A DNA stretch of 36,212 nucleotides from an uncultured Roseburia sp. (GTDB lineage: Bacteria > Bacillota > Clostridia > Lachnospirales > Lachnospiraceae): contig CANRYS010000026.1 in the NCBI GenBank assembly GCA_947644305.1, positions 1-36,212 on the forward strand. Reading direction: 5' to 3'. Shown piece by piece: positions 11,253 through 15,560 of the stretch. The position numbers and the translations under genes are program-made. The stretch's first letter is position 1; the number at the start of each line of letters is the position of its first letter. The notes under the pieces were generated by a model. That model saw only the letters and a list, made by a program, of their open reading frames with translations. It was not told where the DNA came from and did not search any database.

Positions 11253-12497
11253 ATGACATTAGATCAGATTGGAAAAGTGGCAAAGCAGGCGGCGGCAGCG
11301 ATGAACCGTTTGTCCGTAGGAGAGAAAAACAGGGGGCTTACTGCGGTAGCGAAAGCACTGACAGAAGACGCCGGACCGATCCTGGCTGCCAATGAGATAG
11401 ATATCAAAAATGCCCAGGAGACGGGGATGAAGGAATCCCTAATTGATAGGCTTCGTCTTAGCCAAGAGAGGATCGCAGGAATGGCAGAGGGAATCTCCCA
11501 GGTCGTAGCGCTGGCAGATCCAGTAGGAGAGATGATATCCATGAAAACTACACCCGGCGGGCTTCAGGTGGGGCAGCGACGGGTGCCCATGGGAGTGATC
11601 GGCATCATTTACGAGTCCCGTCCCAATGTAACGGCCGATGCCTTTGCCCTCTGCTTTAAGACCGGAAATGCGGTGATCCTGCGGGGAGGAAGCGATGCCA
11701 TCCACTCCAATCTTGCCATTGTGAAGGTGATCCGGGAAGCGTTGAAAAAAGAAGGGCTACCAGAGGATGCGATCCAGCTTCTGGAAGATACATCGAGAGA
11801 GACCGCCAGAGAATTTATGCGGCTGAACCAGTACGTGGATGTGCTCATTCCACGGGGGGGCGCTGGACTGATCCGTACCGTGGTGGAGACCAGTACGGTA
11901 CCGGTGATCGAGACTGGCACCGGCAACTGCCATGTATATGTGGATGAGTACGCAGACCTCTCCATGGCGGTGTCCATCATTGTCAATGCCAAGACCCAGC
12001 GACTGGGAGTATGCAATGCCTGTGAATCCCTGGTGATCCACAATGATATCGCAGCGGAAGCCCTGCCACTGATCTGTGAGGCACTGTACGCTCATGGTGT
12101 CGAGATCCGGGGGGATGAGCGGGCAAGACAGTACGATGATAGGATGGTGGCGGCGTCCGAGGAAGATTTTGGCACAGAATATCTGGATAAGATCATTTCA
12201 GTAAAAATCGTGGACAGCATCGACGAAGCCATTGAACATATCAACCACTATAATACCGGCCATTCGGAGGCCATTGTCACAAGAGATTATCACAATTCCA
12301 TGAAGTTCCTGAACGAGATCGACGCCGCAGCCGTGTACGTCAATGCTTCAACGCGGTTTACCGACGGCTTTGAATTCGGTTTCGGGGCAGAGATCGGGAT
12401 CAGTACCCAGAAACTCCATGCCAGGGGACCGATGGGGCTTCTGGCCCTTACCAGCACAAAATATGTGATCCTGGGAGACGGACAGATCCGGGAGTGA
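11253..12497 (+). CDS. proA: Glutamate-5-semialdehyde dehydrogenase
   Basis: Second step of proline synthesis: NADPH-dependent reduction of gamma-glutamyl phosphate to the semialdehyde. The 414-aa aldehyde-dehydrogenase fold shows [19 protein letters not shown] (115-133), the nucleotide region [23 protein letters not shown] and the catalytic Cys254 in RLGVCNACE. The C-terminal [21 protein letters not shown] is typical. ATG 11253 is preferred because GGAGG (11243-11247) sits 5 bases before it; the in-frame ATG at 11241 overlaps that site. It works with proB upstream. proC is not in the window. Confidence 0.95.
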
Positions 12498-12525
12498 CAG
12501 TATAAATGAAGGAGGATTTAGAAGA

Positions 12526-15165
12526 ATGAAACCATATGGATTAAATGAGTTGAGAAAAATGTATCTGGATTTTTTTGAGAGCAAGGGACATCTGGTGATG
12601 AAGAGCTTTTCCTTGATTCCCCAGAATGACAAGAGCCTGTTGTTGATCAATGCGGGCATGGCTCCGTTAAAGCCTTATTTTACAGGGCAGGAGATTCCGC
12701 CGAGAAAACGGGTGACCACCTGCCAGAAGTGCATTCGTACCGGTGATATCGAGAACGTGGGAAAAACTGCCCGCCACGGTACATTTTTTGAGATGCTCGG
12801 TAATTTTTCCTTTGGAGACTATTTCAAGCACGAGGCGATCGCCTGGTCCTGGGAATTCCTTACGAAGACACTGGAAATTCCAGAGGACCGTTTGTATCCT
12901 TCTGTATACGAAGAGGATGATGAGGCATTTGATATCTGGAATAAAGAGATCGGGGTGGCAAAGGAGCGGATCTTCCGCTTTGGAAAAGAAGATAACTTCT
13001 GGGAGCACGGTGCGGGACCATGCGGTCCCTCCTCGGAGATCTATTTTGACCGCGGAGAGAAATACGGCTGCAATAAACCGGGATGTACCGTGGGTTGTGA
13101 GTGTGACCGCTATGTCGAGATCTGGAATAACGTATTCACCCAGTTTGACAGCGACGGAAAAGGAAACTACGAAGAACTGACCAATAAAAACATTGATACC
13201 GGAATGGGATTGGAGCGTCTCGCTGTCGTGATGCAGGATGTGGATTCCATCTTTGATGTGGATACGATCAAGGCGATCCGGGACAAGGTATGTGAGTTTG
13301 CCGGGATATCCTATGGGACAGAGGAAAAGAAAGACATTTCCATACGGATCATTACAGACCATATCCGTTCGGTGACATTTATGGTTTCGGACGGGATCAT
13401 GCCTTCCAATGAAGGACGGGGATATGTGTTGCGCCGTCTTCTGCGCCGGGCAGCAAGACATGGAAGGCTGCTTGGCATCCAGAAACAATTTCTGGCGGAG
13501 CTGAGCGAGGTGGTGATCCGGGAGTCCAAGGACGGTTATCCGGAACTTGCAGATAAAAAAGACTATATTCTGAAGCTGATCACCACAGAGGAAGAAAATT
13601 TCAATAAAACCATCGATCAGGGACTGAACATTCTCAGTGACATGATGGATGCGATGAAGAAGGAAGGCAAGACCGTTCTTTCTGGAGAAAATACCTTCAA
13701 GCTCTATGATACCTATGGATTTCCGATGGATCTGACCATTGAGATTCTAGAAGAAAAGGGTTTTACAGCAGATGAAGATGGCTTCCGCCAGGCGATGGAG
13801 GTACAGCGCCAGACGGCGAGAGAGGCCAGGGAAGTGACGAACTATATGGGAGCAGATGTGACGGTTTATCAGTCCATTGATCCGGCGGTAGAAAGCAGAT
13901 TTGTCGGCTATGACCGTCTGTGCCATGATTCTAAAGTGACGGTTCTCACCACCTCCGATGCCATCGTAGATGAGCTGTCAGAGGGAATGGAAGGAACGGT
14001 GCTGGTGGAGGAGACGCCCTTTTATGCTACCATGGGTGGACAGGCAGCAGATACCGGCGTGATCAGTACAGACCACGGCAGGTTTGTTGTAGAGGATACC
14101 ATCAAACTGCAGGGGACAAAGATCGGACATGTGGGAAAGATGGTGTCGGGTTCCCTTCGTACCGGGGAAAATGTGACACTGGAAGTGGAGGAGAGTCGGA
14201 GAAATCTCACGGCAAATAACCACAGCGCCACCCATCTTATGCAGAAAGCGCTGAGAATGGTTCTGGGAAGTCATGTGGAGCAGGCGGGTTCTCTGGTGGA
14301 TAAAGATAAACTTCGTTTTGACTTCACTCACTTTTCACCGATGACAGAGGAAGAGATCGCAGAGGTGGAGAGCATCGTCAATGAGGAGATCAATAAAGGT
14401 CTTGATGTAATCACCAGTGAGATGACGCTGGAAGAGGCGAAGAAGACCGGCGCCATGGCGCTGTTCGGGGAGAAGTATGGAGAGACCGTCCGGGTTGTTC
14501 AGATGGGAGATTTTAGTTCCGAGCTCTGCGGTGGTACTCATGTGGAAAATACACGAAATATTTCTGCCTTTAAGATCGTATCTGAGAGCGGTGTGGCTGC
14601 CGGTGTGAGAAGGATCGAGGCGTTGACGGGACAGGGATTGATCGCTCACTACAACCAGGTGGAGAAACAGTTGGTAGAGATCGCTAAAGTATTGAAAGTA
14701 GCGCCATCCGAGGCTGCTAGAAAAGTGATGGCGATGCAGGAAGAGATCAAAACCCTTTCCAAAGAAAATGACAAGCTGAAGGCAAAGATGGCGAAGGCAG
14801 CAGCTGGGGATATCACTTCGGAGGCGACAGAAATCTCAGGAATCCGGGTGCTGATCAAGCAGTTGGCAGATGTGGATATGAATGCCATGCGAGACCTGGG
14901 AGATGAGGCAAAACAGAAGCTTGGCGAGGCAGTGGTGGTATTTGCCACAGAGGCTGGCGGCAAGGTGAACCTGATGGCTACGGCGACAGAAGGAGCTATT
15001 GCCAAGGGAGCCCATGCGGGAAATCTGATCAAGGAGATCGCCGCTCTGGTAGGTGGAGGCGGCGGTGGACGTCCGAACATGGCCCAGGCAGGAGGAAAGA
15101 ATCCTTCCGGTATTCCAGAGGCGCTGGCAAAGGCTGGTGAAGTGGTGAAAAGTCAGTTGGAATAA
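12526..15165 (+). CDS. alaS: Alanyl-tRNA synthetase
   Basis: Charges tRNA-Ala and clears mischarged Ser/Gly. The 879-aa protein has the class II catalytic core (INAGMAPLKPYF, TFFEMLGNFSFGDYFK, GAGPCGPSSEIYFD), a tRNA-recognition region, the editing domain with zinc ligands H566 and H570 (NHSATH) and C668/H672 (CGGTH), a coiled coil around 735-760, and the C-Ala domain with a glycine run followed by RPNMAQAGG. Full length for the family. GGAGG is 10 bases upstream. There is no T-box leader: only 28 bases separate it from proA, so it is read from upstream. Confidence 0.97.
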   Translation: MKPYGLNELRKMYLDFFESKGHLVMKSFSLIPQNDKSLLLINAGMAPLKPYFTGQEIPPRKRVTTCQKCIRTGDIENVGKTARHGTFFEMLGNFSFGDYFKHEAIAWSWEFLTKTLEIPEDRLYPSVYEEDDEAFDIWNKEIGVAKERIFRFGKEDNFWEHGAGPCGPSSEIYFDRGEKYGCNKPGCTVGCECDRYVEIWNNVFTQFDSDGKGNYEELTNKNIDTGMGLERLAVVMQDVDSIFDVDTIKAIRDKVCEFAGISYGTEEKKDISIRIITDHIRSVTFMVSDGIMPSNEGRGYVLRRLLRRAARHGRLLGIQKQFLAELSEVVIRESKDGYPELADKKDYILKLITTEEENFNKTIDQGLNILSDMMDAMKKEGKTVLSGENTFKLYDTYGFPMDLTIEILEEKGFTADEDGFRQAMEVQRQTAREAREVTNYMGADVTVYQSIDPAVESRFVGYDRLCHDSKVTVLTTSDAIVDELSEGMEGTVLVEETPFYATMGGQAADTGVISTDHGRFVVEDTIKLQGTKIGHVGKMVSGSLRTGENVTLEVEESRRNLTANNHSATHLMQKALRMVLGSHVEQAGSLVDKDKLRFDFTHFSPMTEEEIAEVESIVNEEINKGLDVITSEMTLEEAKKTGAMALFGEKYGETVRVVQMGDFSSELCGGTHVENTRNISAFKIVSESGVAAGVRRIEALTGQGLIAHYNQVEKQLVEIAKVLKVAPSEAARKVMAMQEEIKTLSKENDKLKAKMAKAAAGDITSEATEISGIRVLIKQLADVDMNAMRDLGDEAKQKLGEAVVVFATEAGGKVNLMATATEGAIAKGAHAGNLIKEIAALVGGGGGGRPNMAQAGGKNPSGIPEALAKAGEVVKSQLE

Positions 15166-15205
15166 AATTTTTGACCATAATATACCATAAAATGTTCAAA
15201 AACGG

Positions 15206-15233
15206 TTGACGAATCGAAAAATTATGATATAAT
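15206..15233 (+). promoter_or_regulatory. Sigma-A promoter of rpsU
   Basis: TTGACG (15206-15211) and TATAAT (15228-15233) are separated by 16 bases. The transcript would begin near 15240, exactly at the structured leader. Upstream, 15168-15202 holds a loose TTTTTGA/TCAAAAA inverted repeat after alaS but no strong terminator. Confidence 0.8.
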
Positions 15234-15241
15234 ATGTGTTA

Positions 15242-15297
15242 GTGCGAAAAAATACCCAAACAGTTGTATTTTGCACAATTTTACAACTGGAGGGAGG
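15242..15297 (+). promoter_or_regulatory. Candidate H-type pseudoknot leader of rpsU
   Basis: Two interleaved 8-bp stems are possible. S1 pairs 15242-15249 (GTGCGAAA) with 15269-15276 (TTTTGCAC, one G-U pair). S2 pairs 15261-15268 (CAGTTGTA) with 15282-15289 (TACAACTG). The strand order gives loops of 11, 0 and 5 bases, the layout of an H-type pseudoknot, or else two mutually exclusive hairpins. S2 ends directly on the purine-rich GGAGGGAGG at 15289-15297. A role in autogenous control by S21 is inference. Confidence 0.5.
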
Positions 15298-15311
15298 TTA
15301 GGTGTGATACT

Positions 15312-15488
15312 ATGTCAAATGTAATCGTTAAAGAAAACGAATCATTGGATAGTGCATTGCGTCGTTTCAAGAGAAACTGTGCAAAAGCAGGGATCCAGCA
15401 GGAAATTCGTAAGAGAGAGCATTATGAGAAACCAAGCGTTAGACGTAAAAAGAAGTCTGAGGCTGCTCGTAAAAGAAAATTTAAATAA
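15312..15488 (+). CDS. rpsU: 30S ribosomal protein S21
   Basis: Small-subunit protein near the mRNA exit and anti-Shine-Dalgarno region. The 58-aa very basic protein matches S21 throughout: [16 protein letters not shown] near the start, then [16 protein letters not shown] and a lysine/arginine tail. The start is ATG 15312. The strong GGAGGGAGG ends 14 bases upstream, longer than normal, while AGGTG at 15300-15304 gives a 7-base spacing and may be the working site. It has its own promoter and terminator, so it is a single-gene transcript with a structured leader. Confidence 0.97.
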
Positions 15489-15501
15489 TTGCACATATGA
15501 G

Positions 15502-15531
15502 GGAACTCGTCGAAGGACGAGTTCCTTTTTT
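15502..15531 (+). terminator. Rho-independent terminator after rpsU
   Basis: A perfect 10-bp stem (GGAACTCGTC, 15502-15511, with 15516-15525) has a GAAG tetraloop and is followed at once by six T residues. It starts 13 bases after the rpsU stop. Confidence 0.95.
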
Positions 15532-15560
15532 CAATGGACCAGCAGCAAAAGAGACAGGAA

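Follow-up and report, generated by a model that had tools for sequence, protein, structure and literature searches.

The 36,212-nt stretch of DNA analysed here (the window) carries, in this order, alaS (12526-15165), rpsU, a YabP-family gene, yqfD, phoH and ybeY. The rpsU gene (15312-15488, forward strand) encodes the 58-amino-acid ribosomal protein bS21 (Pfam PF01165, Ribosomal_S21, E 4e-24) and had initially been annotated as a single-gene transcript with its own promoter and terminator, which is borne out by a sigma-70-type promoter TTGACG-16-TATAAT with a TG ahead of the -10 hexamer (15206-15233, forward strand; 11/12 consensus) and by an intrinsic terminator composed of a hairpin (15499-15528) and a T-run (15499-15531 in total, forward strand; z -4.65). 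The terminator is absent from the list of a simple scan. T-boxes are frequent ahead of genes like alaS in Bacillota; in a Rfam search of the alaS upstream region (12100-12600), no T-box or other relevant element was retrieved.

Translation of rpsU is preceded by a distal Shine-Dalgarno (SD) sequence, GGAGGGAGG (15289-15297, forward strand), and by a proximal AGGUG (15300-15304, forward strand), present also in many leaders of the family, which may provide a second SD register. In the window, GGAGG is located 14 nt and AGGUG 7 nt from the AUG, while the stretch TTAGGTGTGA (15298-15307), between the distal SD sequence and the start codon, is common to many family leaders.

Between promoter and start codon, the initial annotation had recognised a possible H-type pseudoknot of two interleaved 8-bp helices with loops of 11, 0 and 5 bases, the second helix of which ends on the SD sequence, and all of these elements are exact in the sequence. 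Helix P1 joins GTGCGAAA (15242-15249) at the predicted 5' end of the transcript to TTTTGCAC (15269-15276) in eight pairs including one G.U, with a core of GUGC (15242-15245) and GCAC (15273-15276), whereas helix P2 joins CAGTTGTA (15261-15268; 5' strand CAGUUGUA) to TACAACTG (15282-15289; 3' strand UACAACUG) in eight Watson-Crick pairs, all on the forward strand, and adjoins the SD sequence, sharing with it the first G at position 15289. A third pairing, P3, had been overlooked and unites the anti-SD-like CCC at 15255-15257, within AUACCC, with GGG at 15292-15294 inside the SD run. P3 is separated from P2 by a 3x2 internal loop (15258-15260 opposite GA at 15290-15291) seen in the fold and the alignment. 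P2 and P3 together constitute the nested minimum-energy fold of 15240-15330 (z -2.53; equalled by 3/200 shuffles). As P1 joins the predicted 5' end to the P2 loop, in which its 3' strand is located, the whole is an H-type pseudoknot with its 3' edge inside the SD sequence.

The single sequence by itself is not exceptional. While an equally good pseudoknot occurs in only 9/2000 dinucleotide shuffles of 15234-15300, the same raw score is reached in 59 clusters of 67-nt stretches on both strands of the window, the leader included, so that the case rests on conservation and not on the single sequence.

For comparative analysis, rpsU was searched in overlapping sets of 61 genomes of relatives (53 matched), 392 genomes of the order (364 matched) and 148 of the class (142 matched), to which 80 named rpsU loci were added, many of them under the label Lachnospiraceae; named isolates include Blautia hansenii L142, Fusicatenibacter saccharivorans L148 and Robinsoniella peoriensis L094. 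From these, 340 loci, a part of all matches, were fetched, the window's own (L219) included. A first MAFFT alignment (A1, 65 rows) consists of the window and 64/120 leaders scored as pseudoknotted by an automatic finder; it omits leaders of a TTCTCC type and a local-hairpin type, those called with doubt or stemming from close congeners, and additional leaders of like type. The finder failed on 83 leaders, of which 48 were called 'nopk', 29 were without a -10 hexamer and 6 without an SD sequence; the window itself is among the 48, partly from a wrong choice of the -10 hexamer. A second alignment (A2, 101 rows, 100 distinct) was made from 100/340 loci picked as pseudoknot type and was aligned by a model, built from A1, that holds the P2 and P3 pairs and no P1 pairs; it is therefore blind to P1 pairing but not to conserved P1 letters.

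The pairing potential is conserved across the family, is found in recognisable form beyond it and is linked to rpsU. A covariance model restricted to P2 and P3 has one match each in 35/39 genomes of the genus, the own genome included, and matches 34/40 genomes of the family, each of a different genus (E<=1 in both cases; 29 of the family genomes at E <1e-4), in line with the helix conservation in related rpsU leaders that the initial annotation required. The model is without a match in four genomes of the genus (G003, G009, G012 and G031), and these likewise gave no S21 match, while in G017 the leader is located at a contig edge and the S21 match is absent. As is characteristic of a ribosomal-protein leader, a conserved structure is found in the 5' leader of the gene to which it is linked and, as is characteristic of an H-type pseudoknot, two crossing helices are both conserved.

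This arrangement bears on the identity of a possible ligand. That the leader would respond to a ligand other than bS21, such as a neighbouring platform protein (bS6:bS18 or uS11) or initiation factor 3, appears very improbable. In its favour, the 3' tail of the 16S rRNA in Bacteroidia is described to be accommodated in a pocket made of bS21, bS18 and bS6 (PMC9976891). On the other hand, the only model match in the own genome (E up to 10; 150 of 801 candidates scored) lies at rpsU, and the S21 start is found directly downstream in 28/29 loci fetched from the family search, the match of the 29th (L323) ending at a contig edge; weaker matches, such as a second one in G722 (E 0.27), are outside this count. 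Besides, the leader occurs in G709 (L328; contigs C11 and C37) as three identical copies, of which two point away from each other approximately 1.5 kb apart on one contig; either rpsU is duplicated there or the assembly is at fault, 6% contamination being listed for this genome.

The position of the structure relative to the promoter is equally constrained. A joint promoter-pseudoknot expression fits 113/243 leaders (not de-duplicated), and in 110/113 of these GTGC lies 4-8 nt past the -10 hexamer, so that transcription should start at P1, consistent with the initial proposal that the promoter at 15206-15233 would start the transcript at the structure. The hexamer matched takes the form TAATNT in 50/113 leaders, as it does in the window, sharing bases there with TATAAT and extending two bases past it.

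Covariation was assessed on both alignments. On A1, paired cells make up 92.0% of the pseudoknot (shuffles: 89.8 +- 0.4), both sides are changed in 6 pairs (shuffles: 3.1) and double changes are seen in 23 cells (shuffles: 9.9 +- 2.4). On A2, where the pairing percentages are conditional on the pick of pseudoknot-type loci, 92.5% of the cells are paired against 90.1 +- 0.3 and 40 cells show double changes against 16.4 +- 3.0, while the number of pairs changed on both sides (5 against 3.5 expected) is reached in 35/500 shuffles and by slid versions as well. P1, to the pairing of which A2 is blind, is paired in 93.1% of its cells against 89.5 +- 0.9, with 0/500 shuffles as high. Pair 1 of P1 is G-C in 98 rows and U-A in 2, and pair 2 is U-A in 95 and U-G in 5, none being broken in either case; pair 4 is unpaired in 2 rows (by eye L158 and L189, with the helix shifted) and pair 5 in 32/95 rows. 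The U-A rows at pair 1 are L014/L029 (one distinct row, of the window's genus), in which the strands are TTTGCAAA/TTTGCGAA versus GTGCAAA/TTTGCAC in the congeneric L009 and L011, and L336 of another genus, with the strands TTGCTATA/TATAGCAA. As the P1 core is nearly invariant, the covariation of P1 rests on few events.

In an unguided weighted ranking of 1700 column pairs, a P2 pair comes first, pairs 1 and 5 of P1 come 7th and 8th and another P2 pair 17th, while the other pairs of the structure rank 169 and lower as most of them hardly vary. Ranks 2-6 are taken by column pairs other than those of the structure, which indicates that noise and relatedness remain in the ranking. An earlier shuffle test of the P1 extension pairs found pair 5 to be significant, but so was 1/2 misregistered controls, and the test was set aside; as this result means that relatedness inflates shuffle tests, the P1-blind alignment and the unguided ranking were used instead. 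Covariation in both helices, the second point for which the initial annotation had called, is thereby found for P2 and P1 (A1, A2 and the unguided ranking), as is characteristic of ribosomal-protein leaders. P3, with CCC/GGG paired in 95.3% of A2 cells, shows no double change, as both sides hardly vary, and is thus without support from covariation.

With both helices crossing, conserved and covarying, the H-type pseudoknot is supported. The initial annotation had considered a loop 3 (15277-15281, forward strand) of 5 bases as short for an 8-bp helix; the length is correct, but the worry is eased as only a core of 4-5 bp, GUGC(N)/(N)GCAC, is conserved in P1. The distance from GCAC to AACTG is 7 nt in 84/113 pattern-fitting leaders, which by rule of thumb would be compatible with a P1 of 4-5 bp.

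Two alternative hairpins instead of a pseudoknot are in our view improbable, although they may occur as a dynamic state. Folding programs incapable of pseudoknots return P2 with or without P3 (RNAalifold on A1, which cannot show pseudoknots, gives 5 P2 pairs only), and some leaders do have a separate upstream hairpin: when 215 leaders were read with a motif expression (CCY..CAG..CTG..GG), 9 were too short, 90 unfitting and 106 distinct and fitting; the pseudoknot is present in 79 of these 106, a local 5' hairpin replaces it in 22, and 5 have neither (3/5 because the 5' end remained unparsed). The P1 core alone, however, would amount to 4 pairs closing a 27-nt loop in the window, which is unlikely to be kept without P2, and the narrow spacing from GCAC to P2 likewise argues for the pseudoknot. 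Of the 22 local hairpins, 15 exceed 95% of the mononucleotide shuffles and 7 do not; 3 pseudoknot-type leaders carry a strong local hairpin as well. Local-hairpin leaders (L124, L136, L144, L174 and others) have similar P2 loops, for example ACTTGAGGGACTG.

A further variant is found in two other families of the order, where 15 distinct leaders have a P1 of GUGCUUU(A)/(U)AAAGCAC or near variants and in which UUCUCC pairs straight into the SD sequence (TTCTCC with GGAG).

No family of the RNA catalogue searched corresponds to the leader. Rfam 15, including ribosomal leaders and OLE, gave 0 matches at the gathering score in the window, and a permissive search of 15150-15560 retrieved 4 sub-threshold matches, all to unrelated families, which answers the Rfam query posed at the outset. 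In line with the initial annotation, which knew of no described S21 leader of such kind in Clostridia, none was found among the papers retrieved from open-licence PubMed Central, where the only rpsU autoregulation encountered is flavobacterial and of a different mechanism; a term search within PMC7247131, PMC11109978, PMC8040213, PMC2864571 and PMC6429828 likewise retrieved no such rpsU leader, while one may be listed in the supplement of PMC8040213, in which 508 candidates are described immediately ahead of genes. PMC7247131 presents 20 candidates for ribosomal leaders, which are alike in being structured ribosomal-protein leaders from comparative genomics, but the main text of that work has 0 occurrences of rpsU, S21, bS21 or pseudoknot. 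According to a 2024 review, the regulation of rpsU in E. coli remains unknown and autoregulation by bS21 has been described for Flavobacteria only (PMC10931766).

Two known RNAs share elements of the design. In E. coli, the rpsO (S15) leader folds at the start of the gene into an H-type pseudoknot that engages the ribosome-binding site, but it serves another protein, and the leader in the window has no Rfam match to known ribosomal leaders. The preQ1-I type III riboswitch is a small pseudoknot that takes the SD sequence into its fold and has a metabolite as ligand; the resemblance concerns the pseudoknot/SD design, with no sequence relation shown. The leader may be filed under the ribosomal-protein leaders, as a candidate with putative bS21 binding.

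A parallel is provided by the OLE RNA. In H. halodurans, bS21 is reported to bind the OLE stem P6, a mimic of an SD/anti-SD duplex, and to lose this binding upon inversion of two conserved G-C pairs (PMC12054373); the proposed OLE site is described to resemble the bS21 pocket of the ribosome (PMC12286853). Like P6, the leader has a purine run resembling an SD sequence that can pair with a pyrimidine run of the same RNA, and both belong to a bS21 context; in the leaders this SD-like/anti-SD-like duplex exists as pairing potential (CCC/GGG in A2, and TTCTCC/GGAG in the 15 leaders of the other type). On the other hand, OLE is a noncoding RNA of approximately 600 nt, while the leader is part of the bS21 mRNA, and the two are likened by the published description and not by the P6 sequence (PMC12054373). 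A search with RF01071 (OLE) matched 0/60 family genomes, but no control genome matched either, so that this count is not evidence of absence. Mimicry of 16S rRNA helices, inspected only by eye, is not proposed here.

As the fold draws the GGG of the SD sequence into P3 and as bS21 of H. halodurans binds an SD/anti-SD mimic in OLE, we infer autorepression by bS21: the pseudoknot would keep the SD sequence in an SD/anti-SD-like duplex, where binding of bS21 would repress its own translation, a reading by analogy that we favour with moderate confidence. Upon excess of bS21 over 30S subunits, free bS21 would bind the P3/P2 region with its intramolecular SD/anti-SD-like duplex and, by stabilising this duplex, would block entry of the 30S subunit such that rpsU translation drops. 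Under bS21 shortage, P3 with its 3 bp would open and the purine-rich SD sequence would capture ribosomes. Control would then occur by competition rather than entrapment, with ligand, direction and mode all being what we infer. As the proximal AGGUG is located outside P3, sequestration of the SD sequence may be partial.

The strongest competitors of this reading are a constitutive role in tuning or stability and the mechanism proposed for Flavobacteria. In the first, the leader would fix mRNA stability or translation rate, with the 5' helix protecting the transcript and P2/P3 tuning access to the SD sequence, all without sensing of bS21. In the pattern-fitting leaders P1 is located where the transcript is predicted to start, which agrees with such a role, as does the retention of a 5' stem in leaders of the local-hairpin type. 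The consensus of A1 (TAGTGCA...AAAAATACCCAAACAGTTGTATTATGCACAAT.TACAACTGGAGGGAGG), however, includes conserved unpaired letters, namely the AA of GCACAA with which loop 3 starts (at least 90%) and the AUA ahead of CCC (approximately 70% or more), which hints at recognition although it is no proof; we regard constitutive tuning as unlikely.

In the second, feedback would operate without free bS21: ribosomes lacking bS21 would initiate better on this strong SD sequence than replete ones, and the pseudoknot would do no more than make initiation harder to reach. The long purine-rich GGAGGGAGG of the window is compatible with this mechanism, which is the published model for the autoregulation of F. 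johnsoniae rpsU, the regulator being the ribosome that lacks bS21 (PMC9976891). Both systems would centre feedback on the SD sequence of a transcript containing rpsU only. The F. johnsoniae case, however, consists of a short native leader of 25 nt with an extended SD sequence, as opposed to the conserved pseudoknot with SD pairing in Clostridia, and hairpin and pseudoknot are absent as words from the main text of that work (PMC9976891). A conserved fold of 50 nt would be left unexplained by feedback through bS21-free ribosomes, which we consider rather unlikely here. Lachnospiraceae, moreover, are ordinary SD users.

Autorepression by free bS21, if true, would connect the studies of bS21 in OLE to control of bS21's own gene. 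The protein is described as loosely bound to the ribosome, as affecting SD use and as having an extraribosomal role in OLE RNA (PMC12054373), and a compact, covarying RNA ahead of rpsU across a large family is a candidate for matching the bS21 supply to ribosomes.

The spread beyond the family was assessed in several ways. A class-wide scan with model R1 found matches in 3/291 genomes, all of the family, but as it scored only 17 candidates per genome, leaders outside were read directly. The succession of GTGC, CCY, GCAC and SD sequence is present in 100/165 leaders of the order set against 0.49 expected from shuffles and, outside the order, in 7/81 distinct leaders against a mean of 0.18 and a maximum of 2 in 200 shuffle rounds, the class set comprising 83/90 parsed loci of which 81 distinct ones were counted; the strict pattern is absent from 65/165 order-set and 74/81 class-set leaders. 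Contigs of phages gave 0 matches to the leader motif. From these sequences we would only tentatively, and with some doubt, propose a Clostridia-wide family of bS21 sensors, in which a 5'-terminal pseudoknot would hold an SD/anti-SD mini-duplex that bS21 would read like the mRNA-16S duplex next to its own place on the ribosome. In some lineages an upstream hairpin might have taken the place of the pseudoknot, or the SD pairing might have become wider, with the clamp on the SD sequence retained. Class leaders of other families (L222, L237, L238, L253, L256, L275, L241, L245 and L246) have C-runs of their own, such as CCCTCC, TTCCC and CCGCA; as such C-runs are able to pair with the SD sequence, SD pairing may be wider than the pseudoknot.
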